The notes under the pieces were generated by a model. The model saw only the letters and a list, made by a program, of their open reading frames with translations, had not been told where the DNA came from and did no database searches. Below, piece by piece: positions 13,968 through 22,911 of a stretch of DNA of 64,000 bases (position 1 is the stretch's first letter; the number at the start of each line of letters is the position of its first letter). This DNA comes from Rhodobacter sp. GTDB lineage: Bacteria > Pseudomonadota > Alphaproteobacteria > Rhodobacterales > Rhodobacteraceae. Made by a program: the position numbers and the translations under genes. The stretch is from assembly GCA_013821825.1 (NCBI GenBank), contig PNJK01000002.1:1-64000 (forward strand), given 5' to 3'.

Positions 13968-13981
13968 ATGACCTCAATCAA
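13968..13981 (+). promoter_or_regulatory. FNR/FixK-like box upstream of the acs-pdh-phaC operon
   Basis: ATGAC-CTCA-ATCAA has one mismatch to the TTGA(C/T)-N4-(A/G)TCAA form used by FnrL/FixK regulators in alphaproteobacteria. It lies 59 bases before the first start codon of the operon, a reasonable activator position. Binding is not shown; the site was found by eye. Confidence 0.5.
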
Positions 13982-14040
13982 CGACACCCGCAGCAGGGAC
14001 CTTGATGATTCGCCAAGGCCCATGCAGAGGGAGGATGTCG

Positions 14041-15762
14041 ATGACGCATGCGATCATTGCCAAGAAGGCGCCGGAAGGTGGCCAGAAGCCCCTGCCGACC
14101 GGCTGGGACGCGGCGCGGTCGCGGCTGGCGGGATTGCCGGGAGGCGGTCTGAACATCGCGCATGAGGCGGTGGACCGGCATGTTGCCGCGGGGCATGGGG
14201 CACAGGACGCACTGATCTGGCTCGGCCGCGAGGGCGAGCGGCAGGTGCTGACCTATGCCGATCTGGCCGCCGATGCCGCGCGCTTTGCCAATGTGCTGCG
14301 CGCCCATGGCGTTGCGCAGGGCGAACGGATGTTCCTCTTGTCAGGCCGGGTGCCCGCGCTTTATGCCGCGACCCTCGGCGCGCTGAAGGCCGGGGTGGTT
14401 GTCAGCCCACTCTTCGCCGCCTTCGGCCCGGAACCGGTGCGCGCGCGGATGGAGATCGGTGGGGCCAGTGTGCTGGTCACCACCGAGGCGCAGTACCGCC
14501 GCAAAGTGGCCGACTGGCGGGCAAGCATGCCGGGTCTGAAACTGGTGCTGATCATCGGCGAGGAGGCACCTGAGGGCTGTGTCGCCCTTGGTCCGGCGAT
14601 GGCGGCGGCTTCGGACCGGTTCGAGACGGTCCGCACCAGTCCCGAGGACATGGCGCTGTTGCATTTCACCTCGGGCACCACCGGGCTGCCCAAAGGCGTC
14701 GTGCACGTGCATCAGGCGGTCGTCGCCCACTCTGAAACCGGGCGCCTCGCTCTCGACCTGAAGCCCGGCGACATCTACTGGTGCACCGCCGATCCCGGCT
14801 GGGTGACGGGGATGAGCTATGGCATCATCTCGCCCCTGTGCAACCGCGTGACCATGGTGGTGGACGAGGCCGAGTTCGACCTTGACCGCTGGTACGGCAT
14901 CCTGGAGCGCGAAAGGGTCCAGGTCTGGTACACCGCCCCCACCGCCATCCGCATGATGATGCGGGCGGGCGAGGCAGCTGCCGTCGGGCATGATTTCTCG
15001 GCGCTGCGGTTTCTGGCCAGCGTAGGTGAACCCCTGAACGCGGAATGCGTGATCTGGGGGCAGAAGGTGTTCGGCAAGCCGTTTCACGACAACTGGTGGC
15101 AGTCGGAAACCGGCGGCATAATGATCGCGAACACCGCCGACATGGCCATCAAGCCCGGCGCGATGGGCAAGCCATTGCCGGGGATCGAGGCCGGGATCGT
15201 GACCCGCGAGGACGGGTCGGTGAAGGAAGCCGCTCCCGGCGAGATCGGCGAACTGGCGCTGCGGCCCGGCTGGCCCTCGATGATGCGGGCCTATCTCGGC
15301 CAGCCCGAACGCTACGCCAAGTGCTTTGCCGGCGGCTGGTACCTGACCGGCGACCTCGCCATGCGTGACAGCGACGGGTATTACTGGTTCGTCGGCCGCG
15401 CCGATGACCTGATCAAATCCTCCGGCCACCTGATCGGCCCGTTCGAAGTGGAAAGCGCGCTGATCGAGCATCCCGCCGTGGCCGAGGCGGCGGTGATCGG
15501 CATTCCGGATGAGACGGCGGGCGAGGTGGTCAAGGCCTTCGTCACCCTCAAGGCCGGGTATGACGCTGGCGAGGCGCTGGAGCGCGACCTGCGCGGACAT
15601 GCCAGGAAACGGCTTGGCCCCGCCGTCGCCCCGCGCGAGATCGTGTTTCGCGACAGCCTGCCGCGGACGAGGTCAGGCAAGATCATGCGGCGGCTGCTGC
15701 GGGCGCGCGAGCTGGGCCTGCCGGAAGGCGACCTCTCGACGCTGGAGGGGGATGCGCGATGA
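14041..15762 (+). CDS. Acetate--CoA ligase-like AMP-forming synthetase
   Basis: This 573-residue ANL-superfamily enzyme would activate acetate or a short acyl acid to its CoA thioester via an acyl-adenylate. It has the P-loop [11 protein letters not shown] (about residue 207), the [15 protein letters not shown] and [10 protein letters not shown] motifs shared with acetyl-CoA synthetases, GWYLTGDLA, and the C-terminal catalytic lysine in [10 protein letters not shown] (about residue 545). It is about 80 residues shorter than housekeeping Acs. Two ATGs lie six bases apart; the second has the better spacing to AGAGGGAGG. It opens a six-gene operon and overlaps the E1 gene by four bases. Confidence 0.9.
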
Positions 15763-17753
15763 CGATAAAGGTGAAGCTTGACCACGCCCATATGCACGAT
15801 CTTCTGCGCGGAATGATCCGCATCCGGCGCTTTGAAGAGGCCAGCTACCAGCTTTACACCAAGGAAAGGATTCGCGGTTTCCTGCATCTTTACGATGGCG
15901 AAGAGGCAGTGGCGGTGGGCGTATCCGCTGCGCTGGAGCCGCGCGACCGGGTGGTGTCCACCTACCGCGAGCATGGGCATGCCTTGGCGCGTGGGCTGAG
16001 CATGCAGTCCGCCCTTGCCGAGATGTATGGCAAGGCCACCGGCTGCGCCGGCGGGCGCGGCGGGTCGATGCATATGTTCGACGCCGAGACCAATCTTTAT
16101 GGCGGCAACGCCATCGTCGGCGGTGGGCTGCCCTTGGCGGCGGGTCTGGGACTGGGCGACAAGATGCAGGGGCAGGACCGGGTGACGGCCTGCTTCTTTG
16201 GCGATGGCGCGCTGGCCGAGGGCGAGTTTCACGAGGCGATGAACCTCGCCGCGCTGTGGAAGCTGCCGGTGCTGTTCGTGCTGGAAAACAACCTCTACGC
16301 CATGGGTAGCGCAGTGGCGCGGGTTCAGGCCAACACCGATTTCGTGCCCCGCGCCGGCAGCTATGGGATGCCTGCCGAAAGCGTGGACGGAAATGACGTG
16401 GTGGCGGTCGAGGCCGCCGCGCGGCGGCAGGTCGCGGCAGCGCGGGCGGGCGGCGGGCCGCAGTTCCTGGAATGCCGCACCTACCGGGTCAGACCACATT
16501 CGATGTTCGACGCCGAGAAATACCGCGACAAGGCCGAGGTCGAGGAATGGCGCAAGAAAAGCCCGATCGTCCGGTTTCAAAGCTGGCTTCTGGACAACAA
16601 CCTGATGCATCAGGAAGAGGTCGACGCCATCGAGGCCGAGGTCGAGGCGCAGGTATCCAATGCCATCGCCGCCTGCGAACAGGCCCCTTGGGAACCGGTC
16701 GAAGACCTGCTCCGCCATGTGGTGGCCGAAACCCGGCCCGCTCCGCCCCAGGCGCCGGCCCCCGGCGCGCCCGTCGACAGCACCTACCGCGAGTGTTGCC
16801 GGGCTGCGATTACCGAAGCACTGCTGCGCGACGACCGCGTCTTCATGATGGGCGAGGATATCGGCGCCTATGGCGGCTGCTATGCGGTGTCGATGGGGCT
16901 TCTGAAAGAATTCGGCCCCGACCGCATCCGCGACACGCCGCTTTCGGAATCCGCCTTCACCGGGGCGGGGATCGGGGCGGCCCTGGTCGGTATGCGTCCA
17001 ATCGTCGAGATCATGACCGTCAACTTCTCGCTGCTGGCGCTGGACCAGATCCTGAACACCGCCGCCACCATCCGGCACATGTCGGGAGGGCAGTTCGGCG
17101 TGCCCCTGGTGATCCGCATGGCGACCGGCGCAGGTCGCCAGCTGGCCGCGCAGCATTCGCATTCGCTGGAAGCATTCTTTGCGCATATCCCCGGCCTGCG
17201 GGTCGTCGCCCCCGCCACGCTGGAAGACGCGCGAGGGATGCTGGCGACCGCATTGCAGGAGCCTGACCCCGTCATCATCCTGGAACATGTCATGCTTTAC
17301 AACATGGCCGGGAAGATCGCCGGGAACGCGGGCGCGGTCGATATCGACCGCGCGGCCGTCCGGCGGCCAGGGCGCGACGTGACGCTGATCGCATGGTCGA
17401 ACTGTCTGTGGAAGTCGCTGGAGGCCGCAGAGGCGCTGGCGAAAGACGGGATCGAGGCCGAGGTGATCGACCTTCGGGTGCTGCGCCCGCTGGATGACGC
17501 GACGATCCTTGAATCGGTGCGCCGCACCCGCCGCGCGGTGATCGTGGACGAGGGCTGGCGCAGCGGATCGCTGTCGGCCGAAATTGCCGCGCGGGTGCAG
17601 GAGGCGGGTTTCTGGCATCTTGACGCGCCGGTTGGCCGGGTCTGTTCCGCCGAGGTGCCGGTGCCCTATCCCAAGCATCTGGAAACCGCCGCGCTGCCTC
17701 AGGTAGAGGATATTGTCGCAGCGGTGAAGGCGCTGCCGGGGATAGCGCGATGA
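15759..17753 (+). CDS. 2-oxoacid dehydrogenase E1, fused alpha and beta subunits
   Basis: This 664-residue protein joins two normally separate chains. Residues 1-325 are the E1 alpha subunit, with a thiamine-diphosphate motif [17 protein letters not shown]...LENN; a Pro/Ala linker ([10 protein letters not shown]) follows; residues from about 342 form E1 beta, starting with the usual [11 protein letters not shown]...MGEDIG block and containing [15 protein letters not shown]. It would decarboxylate a 2-oxoacid, most likely pyruvate, and acylate the lipoyl group of the adjacent E2. Substrate (pyruvate, acetoin or branched-chain oxoacid) cannot be fixed by eye; the PDH/acetoin type fits best. It overlaps both neighbours by four bases. 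Confidence 0.9.
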
Positions 17754-18943
17754 GCATCTTCGCAATGCCCTCGCTGGGCGCGGACATGGAAGAGGGCAAG
17801 CTGATCGAATGGCTGGTAAAGCCCGGCGACCGCGTGTCGAAGGGCGACATCGTGGCGGTGGTCGAAACCCAGAAGGGCGCCATCGAGATCGAGATCTTCG
17901 AGGCGGGCGAGATCGGCGCGCTCTTGGCCGAACCGGGACAGACACTACCGGTCGGCGCCCCTCTGGCCCGGCTGGGCGCGGCGGCCGAAGCGAAGGCCGC
18001 GCCCGCCCCGACGCCGGCGGCACCCAAGCCCGCACCGGAACCCGAGGTCGCAGCGAAACCGCCTGCCGCACCGGTCGCGCCGGTTCCGCCAGCTACCGCC
18101 CAAGGTGGCGTGCTTGCGTCGCCCGCCGCGCGAACCCTGGCGGCCGAGCGCGGCATCGCGCTGGAGACCGTCGCAGGGTCGGGCCCCGGCGGGGCGATCC
18201 TGTTGGCGGATGTCGAAAGCCAGGCCCAGCCCGCGCCAAGGCCAGAGGCGGAAAGGCCGAAGGGCAAGCCGGGCCTCGACATGGCCGAGATGCGCCGCGC
18301 CATCGCCGCCGCGATGAGCCGCGCCAAGCGCGAGATCCCGCATTACTACCTCAGCCACGAGATCGACCTGCAATCGGCGCAGGACCGGCTGACCGCTCTG
18401 AACGCGAACCGCACCCCGGACCAGCGGCTCTTGATGGGGGCAGTTCTGATCCGGGCAACGGTCCGGGCGCTGGCCAAGGTGCCAGAGCTGAACGGCCGCC
18501 TCGAGGCCGACCCCTATGCGCCGTCAGAGGCAGTGCATTGCGGGCTGGCCGTGGCGATGCGCGGCGGCGGGCTGATCGCTCCCGCGATCCTGGATGCCCA
18601 GGGCATGGACCTTGACCTGATCATGTCGGCGATGCGCGACCTTGTGGCCCGAACCCGCACAGGGCGCCTTCGCAACAGCGAGATCACCCAGGGCACGATT
18701 ACTGTCTCTTCCCTGGGAGAGACCGGCGTCGATGCGCTTTTTGGCGTGATCTATCCGCCGCAGGTGGCGCTGGTGGGCTTTGGTGCCCCGCGTCTGCGGC
18801 CTATGGTCCATGACGGCAGCGTGCAGCCGCGCCTTGCCGTGACGGCAACCCTTGCCGCCGACCACCGGGTCAGCGATGGCCGCCGTGGCGCGCTGTTCCT
18901 GGCCGAGATCGACCGCCTGCTACAGGAGCCCGAAACCCCATGA
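17750..18943 (+). CDS. Dihydrolipoyl acyltransferase (E2 component)
   Basis: This 397-residue E2 has one N-terminal lipoyl domain with the lipoylated lysine K42 in VETQKGAIE, an Ala/Pro-rich hinge (residues 80-120), a peripheral subunit-binding domain ([14 protein letters not shown] ... GSGPGG) and a C-terminal catalytic domain ending with the DHRVSDG active-site motif. The reading VETQKGAIE differs from the common VETDKA. It accepts the acyl group from the upstream E1 and passes it to CoA. No E3 (dihydrolipoyl dehydrogenase) gene is in the operon, so a housekeeping E3 must serve. The next gene overlaps by four bases. Confidence 0.92.
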
Positions 18944-19188
18944 CCCCCACCGACATCCGCGCCGGCTTTATCGCCGACTTGACCGCCGTCGCCCCGGACC
19001 TTGATCCGGGAAGCATCGGCGATACCGACCATCTGCAGGATGACCTTGGTCTTGATTCCATGGATTTTCTGAACCTCGTCAGCGCCTTGCACAAGCGGTT
19101 CGGCCTGCCGATCCCTGAAGCCGACTACCCGCAGCTGGCGACGCCGGAAAAGTCCGTGGCCTATCTGGCCAGCCAGCTGGCGACGTGA
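18940..19188 (+). CDS. Acyl carrier protein
   Basis: This 82-residue protein has the acyl-carrier fold pattern and the phosphopantetheine attachment motif GLDSMD with S40 as the modified serine. It is acidic, as expected, but diverges from fatty-acid AcpP in both termini. It overlaps the E2 gene by four bases and lies ten bases before ftsH. Its place between a 2-oxoacid dehydrogenase and a PHA synthase is unexpected, because both partners normally work with CoA. It may carry an acyl group between these enzymes or regulate one of them; neither is shown. Confidence 0.92.
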   Translation: MTPTDIRAGFIADLTAVAPDLDPGSIGDTDHLQDDLGLDSMDFLNLVSALHKRFGLPIPEADYPQLATPEKSVAYLASQLAT

Positions 19189-19198
19189 CCATCAAAGG

Positions 19199-21028
19199 AT
19201 GACGCCGACCATGGACCGAAAGCAGCAGATCCATTTGTGGTATTTTCTGGCGGCCTTCATGGGGCTGATGCTGGTGCAGTCCTGGCTGTCGCAGGCCTCG
19301 GTCACCCAGCGCATTCCCTACAGCACTTTCCTAGAGCATCTTGAAGCCGGCAGGATCGCGTCGGTAACCGTGCGGGCCGAACAGATCGAAGGTCGCTATG
19401 TCGACCCGATCGAAGGCAACACGCATTTCATCACCAACATCGTGCCGCCTGACCTGACCGAGCGGCTGGAACAGTCTGGTGCCGAGTTCGATGGCACGGT
19501 GCAGAACACCTTCCTGTCTACCCTTCTGTCCTGGTTCCTGCCGATGCTCCTGATCTTTGCCCTGTGGAGCTTCTTCTTGCGTGGGGCGATCGAGAAGCAG
19601 GGCCTGGGCGGGATGATGAGCGTCGGCAAGTCGCGCGCCAAAATCTACGTGGAACGCGACACCGGCGTCACTTTCGACGATGTGGCTGGCGTGGACGAGG
19701 CCAAGGCCGAACTGAAGGAGATCGTCGATTTCCTGAAGGAACCGAAGAAGTTCGGCCGGCTTGGCGCCCATATCCCGAAGGGGATCCTGCTGACCGGCCC
19801 GCCCGGCACCGGCAAGACGCTCTTTGCCCGTGCCATCGCGGGCGAGGCCGGGGTGCCGTTCTTCTCGATCTCGGGCAGCGAGTTCGTCGAGATGTTCGTG
19901 GGCGTCGGCGCGGCGCGGGTGCGCGACCTTTTCGATCAGGCGCGCAAGGCCGCGCCCTGCATCATCTTCATCGACGAGCTGGACGCCCTGGGCCGCCGTC
20001 GCGGCATTGGCGGCTTTGGCGGCGGGCATGACGAGAAGGAGCAGACGCTGAACCAGCTTCTGGCCGAACTTGACGGGTTCGATCCGCGCGAAGGCATCGT
20101 GCTTCTGGCCGCGACCAACCGGCCTGAAATCCTTGACCCGGCGCTGATGCGGGCCGGGCGGTTCGACCGTCAGGTGGTGGTGGACCGGCCCGACAAGACC
20201 GGCCGGGCCGCGATCCTGCGGGTGCATCTGCGCAAGGTGGCCGTCGATCCCGCGCTGGATATCGACGCGGTGGCCGGGCTCACTCCGGGCTTCACCGGCG
20301 CGGAGCTGGCCAATCTGGTGAACGAGGCGGCGATCCATGCCACAAGGCGCGGTGGGGTTGCAGTGGGGATGGCCGACATCACCTCGGCAATCGAACGCGT
20401 CGTGGCCGGGATGGAGCGCAAGGGCCGGCTACTGAACGCCCGTGAACGCGAGACCGTTGCCTGGCACGAGATGGGCCACGCGCTGGCCGCCGCCCGCCTG
20501 CCGGGGTCCGACCCGGTGCACAAGGTGTCGATCATCCCGCGCACCATCGGCGCTCTGGGCTATACCATGACCCGCCCGACAGAAGACCGGTTCCTGATCA
20601 CCCTGACGGAACTGGAAAACCGCATGGTGATGCTGCTGGCCGGGCGCGCGGCGGAACAGATCCGCTTTGCCGAGGTGTCGACCGGGGCGGCGGACGATCT
20701 GGTGCGTGCCACCGACATCGCGCGCCAGATCGTCACCCGTTTCGGCATGCATGAAACCCTCGGCCAGGCGGTTCTGGAACAGGACCGCGGCGGTTTCCTG
20801 GGCGAGGACCGGCTAAGCTTTACCCCGCGCGACCATTCCGAAGCCACCGCGCGCGAGGTTGATCTGGCCGTGCGCGGGCTTCTGGAAGATGCCTATCAGC
20901 AGGCGCTCGCCCTGCTGAAAGAGGTCCGCGCCGATCTGGAGGCCGGGGCCAGGCTCCTCATGGAACGCGAGACGATTACCCCTGCCGACTTCCCGCCCCT
21001 GAATCCGAAGGAGGCCCGCGCCGCATGA
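19199..21028 (+). CDS. ftsH: FtsH-type membrane AAA+ zinc metalloprotease (operon paralogue)
   Basis: This 609-residue protein has the FtsH layout: a first membrane segment near residues 13-33, a periplasmic domain, a second membrane segment near 101-126, an AAA+ domain with Walker A GPPGTGKT (about 200) and Walker [34 protein letters not shown], and the M41 zinc motif HEMGH (about 422-426). HEMGH replaces the usual HEAGH but keeps all zinc and catalytic residues. It is a little shorter than housekeeping FtsH, mainly at the C terminus. Its position inside this operon suggests a specialised paralogue controlling the dehydrogenase, ACP or PHA granule proteins. It overlaps phaC by four bases. 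Two start codons 12 bases apart are possible. Confidence 0.93.
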
Positions 21029-22911
21029 CCCGCCCCCCTACCCGCCCCCCAACCCGCCGCCCCTCCCGAAAGCCGACCCAGACGCCGACCCGCCTGCGTC
21101 CTGCCTTGGTTGCCAAGGATGCCTCCCAACTGCCAGCGGTCATCCCGCAACTGGTGGCACCCTCCGGCAAGCCCGCGGAGCGCGAAGACGCTAAGCACCA
21201 CCACGCGGCCATTGATCGCGGCGTCATGGCCAGCCTGGCGCAAATGACGGCGGGGCTTTCGCCCCACGCCATGTTCGATGCCTGGAACGACTGGGCGATG
21301 CATCTTTCCCGCGCTCCGGGGCGGCAGCTGGAGCTGATGGAGCGGGCACAGGCCAATTGGCTGAAGCTGTCGCAATTCGCCCTTGCCGCTGTCCTGGGCA
21401 AGTCACCGGAAAAGCCCTTCCAGCCCGGTCCCTATGACACGCGCTGGTCGCATGAAGGCTGGGACAAGGCGCCCTTCGCGCTGTGGCAGCAGGGGTTTCT
21501 GGGCCTGCAGGATTGGTGGCAGGCCGCCACGGCCGACCTGCCGGGCCTGCGCCACCAGAACGCCCAACGCGCCGGCTTCATGATGCGGCAGTTGCTGGAC
21601 ACCGTGTCGCCGTCCAACTTCCCGCTCGCCAATCCTGAGATCCTGGAGAAGACGCGCAAGACCCATGGCCGAAATCTGATCGACGGGGCCGCGCATTTCG
21701 CAGACGACGCCCGCCATATCCTTGCCCATGAACACCGGCCCGTGCCGGAAGCCTTTGCGTTGGGCAAGGTGCTAGCCTGCACCCCCGGCACCGTGGTCTT
21801 TCGCAACGAATTGATGGAATTGATCCAATATGCCCCCGCAACCGAGATGGTGCACGCCGAGCCGGTGCTGATCGTCCCGGCCTGGATCATGAAATACTAC
21901 ATCCTCGACCTTTCCCCGGAGAACTCGTTCATCCGCTGGCTGGTCAGCCAGGGTTACACCGTCTTCTGCATCTCGTGGTGCAACCCGACGGCAGATCAGG
22001 GTGGCGTGTCGCTTGAGGACTACCGGACCCAGGGCGTCATGCAGGCGGTAAAGGTCATCAACGAGATCCTGCCTGGCCAGAAGATCCATGCCAACGGCTA
22101 TTGTCTTGGCGGAACGCTTCTGGCGATTGCGGCCGCCACTATGGCACGCAATCACGATGACCGCTTCGCATCGGTGACGCTGATGGCCGCCCAGGTCGAT
22201 TTTGCCGAGGCGGGCGAGCTTTTGCTGTTTCTCGATGAAAGCCAGGTGGCCCTGCTGGAAGACCTGATGTGGGCGCAAGGCTATCTTGACAGGCCACAGA
22301 TGTCGGGCGCCTTCGCGGCGATCCGGTCGGAAGACCTGATCTGGTCGCGCGCCACGCGCCGTTATTTTCTGGGACAGCCTGACCTGCCGACGGACATGAC
22401 CGTCTGGGTCAACGACACCACAAGAATGCCGGCGCGGATGCACTCGGAATACCTGCGGGGGGTGTTTCTGGAAAACCGCATCACTGCCGGCCGGTTTTCT
22501 GTCGAAGGCCGCGTCATCGCCCTGAAGGATATGGAGGTGCCGATGTTCGTCGTGGCGACAGAGACTGATCACATCGCGCCATGGCGGTCTGTCTACAAGA
22601 CCTCGCTGTTCACCGATTGCGACCTGCATTTCCTTCTGACCAAGGGCGGCCACAACGGCGGCATCCTGTCCGACCCCGGCCGCAAGGGGCGTCACTACCG
22701 GATCGGGCATCGCCCGGCCGGTGCCCATTACCGCGACCCCGACAGATGGCTGGCGACCCATGATCCCAAGCCCGGATCCTGGTGGCCGGAATGGGCGCAA
22801 TGGCTGGATGGGCTAAGCGATGACCTTGTCCCCGCGCGTCATCCCGCAGCAGCGCAACCCGGCGATCCACCCCGCGATCCGGCCCCGGGGCGCTATGTCA
22901 TGGTGCCGTGA
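21025..22911 (+). CDS. phaC: Polyhydroxyalkanoate synthase, class I type
   Basis: This 628-residue alpha/beta-hydrolase-fold enzyme polymerises (R)-3-hydroxyacyl-CoA. The lipase-like box reads GYCLGG with the catalytic C360; D515 (ETDHIAPW) and H543 (KGGHNGG) complete the triad. The conserved PHA_synthase_N region (FPLANPEILEKTRKTHGRN...) and IVPAWIMKYYILDLSPENS, FCISWCNP are present. The first 40 residues are a low-complexity Thr/Pro/Arg stretch (RPPTRPPTRRPSRKPTQTPT) that is not part of the catalytic core. It ends the six-gene operon. The class I assignment rests on its single-subunit length; no phaE or phaR is nearby. Confidence 0.95.
   Translation: MTRPPTRPPTRRPSRKPTQTPTRLRPALVAKDASQLPAVIPQLVAPSGKPAEREDAKHHHAAIDRGVMASLAQMTAGLSPHAMFDAWNDWAMHLSRAPGRQLELMERAQANWLKLSQFALAAVLGKSPEKPFQPGPYDTRWSHEGWDKAPFALWQQGFLGLQDWWQAATADLPGLRHQNAQRAGFMMRQLLDTVSPSNFPLANPEILEKTRKTHGRNLIDGAAHFADDARHILAHEHRPVPEAFALGKVLACTPGTVVFRNELMELIQYAPATEMVHAEPVLIVPAWIMKYYILDLSPENSFIRWLVSQGYTVFCISWCNPTADQGGVSLEDYRTQGVMQAVKVINEILPGQKIHANGYCLGGTLLAIAAATMARNHDDRFASVTLMAAQVDFAEAGELLLFLDESQVALLEDLMWAQGYLDRPQMSGAFAAIRSEDLIWSRATRRYFLGQPDLPTDMTVWVNDTTRMPARMHSEYLRGVFLENRITAGRFSVEGRVIALKDMEVPMFVVATETDHIAPWRSVYKTSLFTDCDLHFLLTKGGHNGGILSDPGRKGRHYRIGHRPAGAHYRDPDRWLATHDPKPGSWWPEWAQWLDGLSDDLVPARHPAAAQPGDPPRDPAPGRYVMVP

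Follow-up and report, generated by a model that had tools for sequence, protein, structure and literature searches.

The locus analyzed here lies in a 64,000 nt stretch (hereafter, the window) of contig PNJK01000002.1 from Rhodobacter sp., and consists of six closely spaced genes preceded by an Fnr/Crp-type box. The first four genes, acs-E1-E2-ACP, encode an acetate--CoA ligase, the E1 and E2 components of a pyruvate dehydrogenase (PDH)-type complex and an acyl carrier protein (ACP), and represent a widespread, conserved but unnamed bacterial operon, referred to below as the core or the module. The last two genes, ftsH and phaC, which encode a protease and a polyhydroxyalkanoate (PHA) synthase, are a local, lineage-specific addition to this core. 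The gene positions, families and junctions given in the initial annotation, as well as the FNR-like box in front of the first gene, were reproduced from the sequence. The features are the following:

13968..13981, + strand: FNR/Crp-type box ATGACCTCAATCAA, 8 of 10 positions matching TTGAT-N4-ATCAA
14041..15762, + strand: acs, AMP-forming acetate--CoA ligase of the AcsA type (family match)
15759..17753, + strand: fused pyruvate-dehydrogenase-type E1 alpha and beta (family matches in one frame)
17750..18943, + strand: E2 acyltransferase of a distinct clade, with the lipoyl motif ETQKG and the active site DHRVSDG
18940..19188, + strand: dedicated ACP with the serine site DSMD
19199..21028, + strand: ftsH, one of two FtsH genes in the genome, added in this lineage (family match)
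21025..22911, + strand: phaC, one of three PHA synthase genes in the genome, divergent and added in this lineage (family match)

Four of the junctions are overlaps of 4 nt each, and a gap of 10 nt separates the ACP gene from ftsH. The start of acs could be an ATG at 14035 or 14041, a TTG at 14002 also being possible; the stop is at 15762. A scan of the operon for promoters and terminators yielded no signal above chance.

The window proteins were assigned to families using Pfam and NCBIfam models with their cut-offs. The ligase matches PRK04319 (acetate-CoA ligase) with 850.9 bits (cut-off 729), and both parts of the fused E1 reach curated PDH models, namely TIGR03182 for the alpha part (423.6; cut-off 393.9) and PRK09212 for the beta part (405.8; cut-off 321); against PRK11892, the beta part remains under the cut-off (389.6 vs 454). 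In the E2, Pfam models recognize a lipoyl domain with the lysine, an E3-binding domain and a catalytic domain with D-H-R, and the cut-off of no NCBIfam E2 model is reached. Similarly, the ACP contains a PP-binding domain (41.1 bits), and its best score against the NCBIfam ACP models of the AcpP type is 37.2 bits (cut-off 71). The FtsH, which contains the AAA and M41 protease domains, scores 745.8 against FtsH_fam (TIGR01241; cut-off 600). The PhaC passes the PhaC_N cut-off but not that of the class I model PHA_synth_I (TIGR01838; 495 vs 623) and is thus a divergent member of its family.

The source genome (4.0 Mb in 234 contigs) encodes, elsewhere, another FtsH, two other PhaCs, a second Acs with 40% identity and a housekeeping PDH E2 that adjoins E1 beta. 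The operon is an addition to, rather than a part of, the basic machinery of the cell, and the candidate explanation that the core is the sole PDH or Acs is rejected given the housekeeping PDH and the other Acs. Across the whole genome (G000), E2 catalytic domains of 2-oxoacid dehydrogenases were detected just twice, in the PDH and in the module; an E2 of 2-oxoglutarate dehydrogenase was not found, perhaps due to an assembly gap.

The core was traced with the fused E1 as query in overlapping genome samples of 289 Alphaproteobacteria, 398 Pseudomonadota and 295 members of the family. Among the 51 neighbourhoods examined, picked for an E1 at least about 60% identical, the order acs-E1-E2-ACP is fixed and recurrent; the exceptions are a locus with E1 and E2 only (L118), a broken one (L132) and three that end before the ACP (L047, L101 and L116). 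E1 occupies two separate genes in many of these neighbourhoods. A scan of named genomes with the E2 alignment detected at least 588 relatives. Among the best 80 of these at least 588, all four core genes are present in 70 (phmmer or tblastn; 65, then 5 more), the ACP of L261 is detectable by profile only, and contig ends interrupt the core in L186, L195, L202, L205, L208, L231 and L241; the other two, L196 and L211, show no acs. These best 80 span Pseudomonas, Pontibacterium, Desulfuromonadaceae, Myxococcota, Acidobacteriota and Mycobacteriales. On plasmids, 120 records contain an E1 match, and the 11 core loci examined add Cupriavidus, Burkholderia, Rhodococcus and Streptomyces (the Photobacterium plasmid record carries no annotation). 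Overall, the core extends from Alpha-, Beta- and Gammaproteobacteria to Actinomycetota and members of a few other phyla. Dereplication of the 130 full-length module E2s at 90% identity left 121 loci, window included, in which E1 is fused in 80, split in 37 and assigned to neither form in 4. The condition that the initial annotation named for its refutation, a lack of conservation beyond close relatives, applies to the six-gene form, which is confined to near kin, but not to the four-gene core, which extends across phyla. In the literature searched, judged by titles and the beginnings of abstracts, no paper describes the core unit or gives it a name or function, and six terms queried in PMC4999443 are all absent.

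The E2 and ACP genes are tightly coupled. The ACP gene follows the module E2 in 138 of 143 loci (some genomes are included twice), with an overlap of exactly 4 nt in 120; the five loci without it are four contig ends and L118. After dereplication, the ACP is found behind E2 in 120 of the 121 loci, 104 of these with the exact overlap, and L118 is the sole miss. E2-ACP fusions are not found among the 143 loci. A profile of the module ACP run against the 289 Alphaproteobacteria gives 18 matches of at least 73 bits, after which the score drops to 48; 17 of the 18 adjoin a module E2 and the remaining one belongs to the genome G148. In the partly overlapping sample of 398 genomes of the phylum, all 14 matches above 80 bits lie beside a module E2, and the weaker matches include three ACPs that, judged by eye, are located between reductase- and fabF-type genes and one (L360) that stands alone. 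In G148 (L333:8082-10143), an acs of the module kind is directly followed by the module-type ACP, with no E1 or E2 in 17 kb; its mirror image is L118 (4528-7661), where the module E1 and E2 have neither acs nor ACP beside them. The acs-ACP pair of G148 adjoins an ATP-grasp acyl-CoA ligase-type gene and a GH3-family gene.

The module E2s also form a separate clade. In a FastTree phylogeny, a single branch with an SH-like support of 96 separates the 121 module E2s from 16 other E2s, the latter comprising those of loci in which the E1 match was weaker and that of the PDH of the source genome, with two long branches among them. The D-H-R residues, described as conserved among E2s in the available part of PMC8421416, are kept in 121 of 121 module E2s, and Asp376 in 118. 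Arg188 and Glu191, each present in 14 of the 16 other E2s, are replaced in 116 module E2s by Ala and Arg, respectively, and the D-K-A context of the lipoyl lysine, found in 16 of 16 other E2s, is mostly Q-K-G in the module (Q in 100, G in 111). Compared with the canonical PDH complex (E1p/E2p), the module shares the E1 alpha and beta components and an E2 with lipoyl, E3-binding and D-H-R-containing catalytic domains, but differs in the separate E2 clade with QKG for DKA and A/R for R188/E191, and in an operon that lacks an E3 gene while containing ACP and Acs genes and an Fnr-type box.

One alternative interpretation of these components, an ordinary extra PDH and an Acs that both make acetyl-CoA, with the ACP being either a passenger or a helper in fatty acid synthesis, fits the curated matches to a plain acetate-CoA ligase and PDH E1, and the invariant D-H-R. 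It appears unlikely nonetheless, considering that a passenger would hardly be kept in nearly all loci across phyla, mostly at the same fixed overlap, and that other ACPs score far lower on the module ACP profile, with three of them found in the company of reductase- and fabF-type genes.

Conservation upstream of acs points to oxygen control. From the 143 loci, 130 usable upstream regions were obtained, or 120 after dereplication, and the expected counts were derived from dinucleotide shuffles. The sequence TTGAT-N4-ATCAA, which we take to be an Fnr/Crp-type motif, is found upstream of acs with at least 9 of 10 positions matching in 36 of the 120 loci (0.7 expected) and with at least 8 of 10 in 85 (11.1 expected). 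By comparison, 19 other half-site arrangements reach at most 2 and 12 loci at the two thresholds, respectively, and spacers other than 4 reach at most 4 and 24; since these controls use the same sequences, kinship alone does not account for the excess. The box of the window, weak when taken alone, gains support because it matches the box that is conserved in front of acs elsewhere. In Streptomyces (L178), a divergent intergenic region holds one OsdR-like site (12/12, with no control run) at -271, and L255 and L258 contain DevR-like sites (9/12, likewise with no control run); these boxes in Actinomycetota are too few to be counted.

The neighbours of the core are in line with such regulation. 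On plasmids, varying subsets of universal-stress proteins, Hsp20, CBS, BON, Crp/Fnr and P-type ATPase genes are found next to the core, along with phosphoenolpyruvate (PEP) synthase or pyruvate phosphate dikinase and nicotinate phosphoribosyltransferase. In 20 matched genomes of the family, at least one marker gene is present near 10 of the 20 core loci versus 2 of the 20 control stretches of the same genomes (one-sided Fisher test, ~0.007), with a marker set that was chosen beforehand after viewing other loci. According to the available parts of the respective papers, the lxa locus of Burkholderia cenocepacia includes six stress-protein genes (PMC9733578), and the OsdR regulon of Streptomyces coelicolor includes stress proteins, alcohol dehydrogenase, nitroreductase and pyruvate phosphate dikinase (PMC5069765). 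Universal-stress proteins are thus common to the lxa locus, the OsdR/DevR regulons and the surroundings of the module; genes of the OsdR-regulon type, including those for the three enzymes, adjoin the module in Streptomyces fungicidicus, and stress-protein genes do so in Rhodococcus. In the portions of the lxa, OsdR and DevR literature that were queried, a set that does not include the original lxa paper, the terms acyl carrier, acetyl-CoA synthetase and dihydrolipoamide are not encountered, and the core might still be a member of the lxa locus. With the box conserved in distant relatives and neighbours that belong to known low-oxygen regulons, the earlier suggestion of low-oxygen use is borne out to the extent that the core is very likely under low-oxygen control.

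The two distal genes behave differently. Downstream of E2, at least 1 kb of sequence was available in 116 dereplicated loci, and 4 kb or more in 106 of these; the survey also included all 135 loci with 1 kb. Among the 116, an intact FtsH on the same strand is found in four, the window, L183, L184 and L188, and PhaC follows it in three, the window, L183 and L188 (the latter cut by a contig end), all of these being near kin; L184 has FtsH alone. Other near kin lack both genes or show them singly or in decay: L097 retains only the ends of ftsH with an intact PhaC, L187 contains pieces of ftsH together with PhaC, and L098 (= L192), remnants of both genes. Extending the survey to the complete set of 135 loci contributes nothing beyond the remnants of L098/L192, which dereplication had removed as near-copies. 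The six-gene unit is therefore rejected as a conserved module, contrary to the initial annotation. Where intact, the FtsH downstream of the core is 88-93% identical to that of the window, so ftsH is probably functional in those loci.

In the same annotation, the six genes were proposed to form a module in which, when oxygen is low, polyhydroxybutyrate (PHB) made from surplus pyruvate and acetate serves as an electron sink and FtsH controls its level. The close spacing of all six genes, with their overlaps, agrees with this proposal, as does the presence of PhaC near the core in other loci, alone behind ACP in L127, on the opposite strand in L185 and L250, and in Sulfitobacter SK012. However, the ftsH-phaC order is rare and decays in neighbours, FtsH has been lost while PhaC was kept (L097 and L187), the genome encodes two other PhaCs, and neither phaA nor phaB is part of the operon, all of which makes the proposal quite improbable.

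Altogether, the core is best interpreted, with a probability of roughly 0.7, as an accessory, horizontally mobile, acetyl-producing module that would be switched on at low oxygen by a Crp/Fnr-family regulator. What can be read directly from the sequences is the gene content, the E2-ACP adjacency, the Fnr-type box, the separate E2 clade, the occurrence on plasmids and across phyla, and the neighbours typical of low-oxygen or dormancy islands. Under the proposed scheme, E1 and E2, with an E3 borrowed from the housekeeping PDH, would transfer the acetyl group of pyruvate to the lipoyl arm of E2, while Acs would convert acetate to acetyl-CoA; both routes would supply a single acetyl pool which the ACP draws on or carries. 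Less certainly, the phosphopantetheine arm of the ACP might itself be the acetyl acceptor. In the lineage of the window, an accessory membrane protease and a PHA synthase have been appended to this core. Several points weigh against this interpretation. The PRK04319 match together with the intact D-H-R and E3-binding motifs fits plain production of acetyl-CoA, for which an ACP is not needed. The box of the window reaches only 8 of 10 positions, none of the Crp/Fnr proteins of the genome, whose cysteines were inspected, can be named Fnr with certainty, and half of the matched core loci (10 of 20) lack any of the preselected markers. Furthermore, the exceptions that appear to link the ACP with Acs, G148 and L118, are each a single case, and two loci argue against a strict pairing: in L196, no acs was found over the 2.8 kb that precede E1-E2-ACP, and L211 contains the end of E1, E2 and ACP only.

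A more specific and tentative version is a carrier-protein-terminated PDH, in which, at low oxygen, the module E2 and its Acs would load acetyl groups on the ACP instead of, or besides, CoA, creating a separate acetyl-ACP pool. It is allowed, although not proven, by the E2-ACP coupling, the loci G148 and L118, the R188A and E191R replacements and the lipoyl QKG. If the carrier does accept acetyl, the module would open a new branch in the central carbon metabolism of bacteria that survive without oxygen. Even otherwise, it clearly marks low-oxygen islands. With its built-in carrier protein, it represents a variant of a textbook complex that is conserved, present in several phyla and apparently controlled by oxygen.

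Alternatively, the ACP could be dedicated to lipoylation, supplying octanoyl-ACP so that the E2 stays lipoylated at low oxygen. The E2 requires lipoyl groups and is almost universally adjacent to the ACP, and LipB takes the octanoyl chain from C8-ACP, as stated in the available part of PMC9307952; in addition, a lipoate-protein ligase gene (L334:4703-5719) is located 94 nt behind a module copy. Nevertheless, a housekeeping ACP would be expected to suffice for this purpose, and the helix that follows the serine in the module ACP is nearly neutral, with 2.3 acidic and 2.2 basic residues (His counted) per 16 (n=109; no housekeeping ACPs were compared). LplA uses free lipoate rather than ACP as the substrate, and the acs-ACP pair of G148 has no E2 in its vicinity. 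A role in lipoylation thus seems doubtful, and the low-oxygen acetyl-producing module remains the preferred interpretation.

Accessory FtsH proteins are also encoded on plasmids, where the 40 best matches to the FtsH of the window are 60-65% identical and come mostly from rhizobia and Paracoccus. On the Sinorhizobium fredii plasmid pSF45436d, such a gene lies 2.6 kb from the same core, outside its operon and on the opposite strand. In a Chelativorans plasmid (L174:403-14348), an accessory ftsH lies between two sets of TniQ, TniB and transposase genes; the flanking sets have the same protein accessions, which suggests that this ftsH moves by transposition. On a plasmid of Sulfitobacter SK012 (L180:1-8585), the core is found beside ATP synthase genes and genes for PhaC, FabI, a MaoC-Pta fusion and AckA, a set by which PHB units might be converted to butyrate with a gain of ATP.

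The site of the operon is variable, since a relative from the same genus (G945; L336:4996-14874) has about 10 kb of different genes between the same flanks, aroC, an aldolase and a short-chain dehydrogenase/reductase (SDR) gene on one side and ubiH on the other. In the remaining 10 stretches from the genus, just ubiH and its amidase neighbour are recognized. By eye, the genes of the G945 insert are monooxygenase-, dehydrogenase- and ABC-transporter-like.

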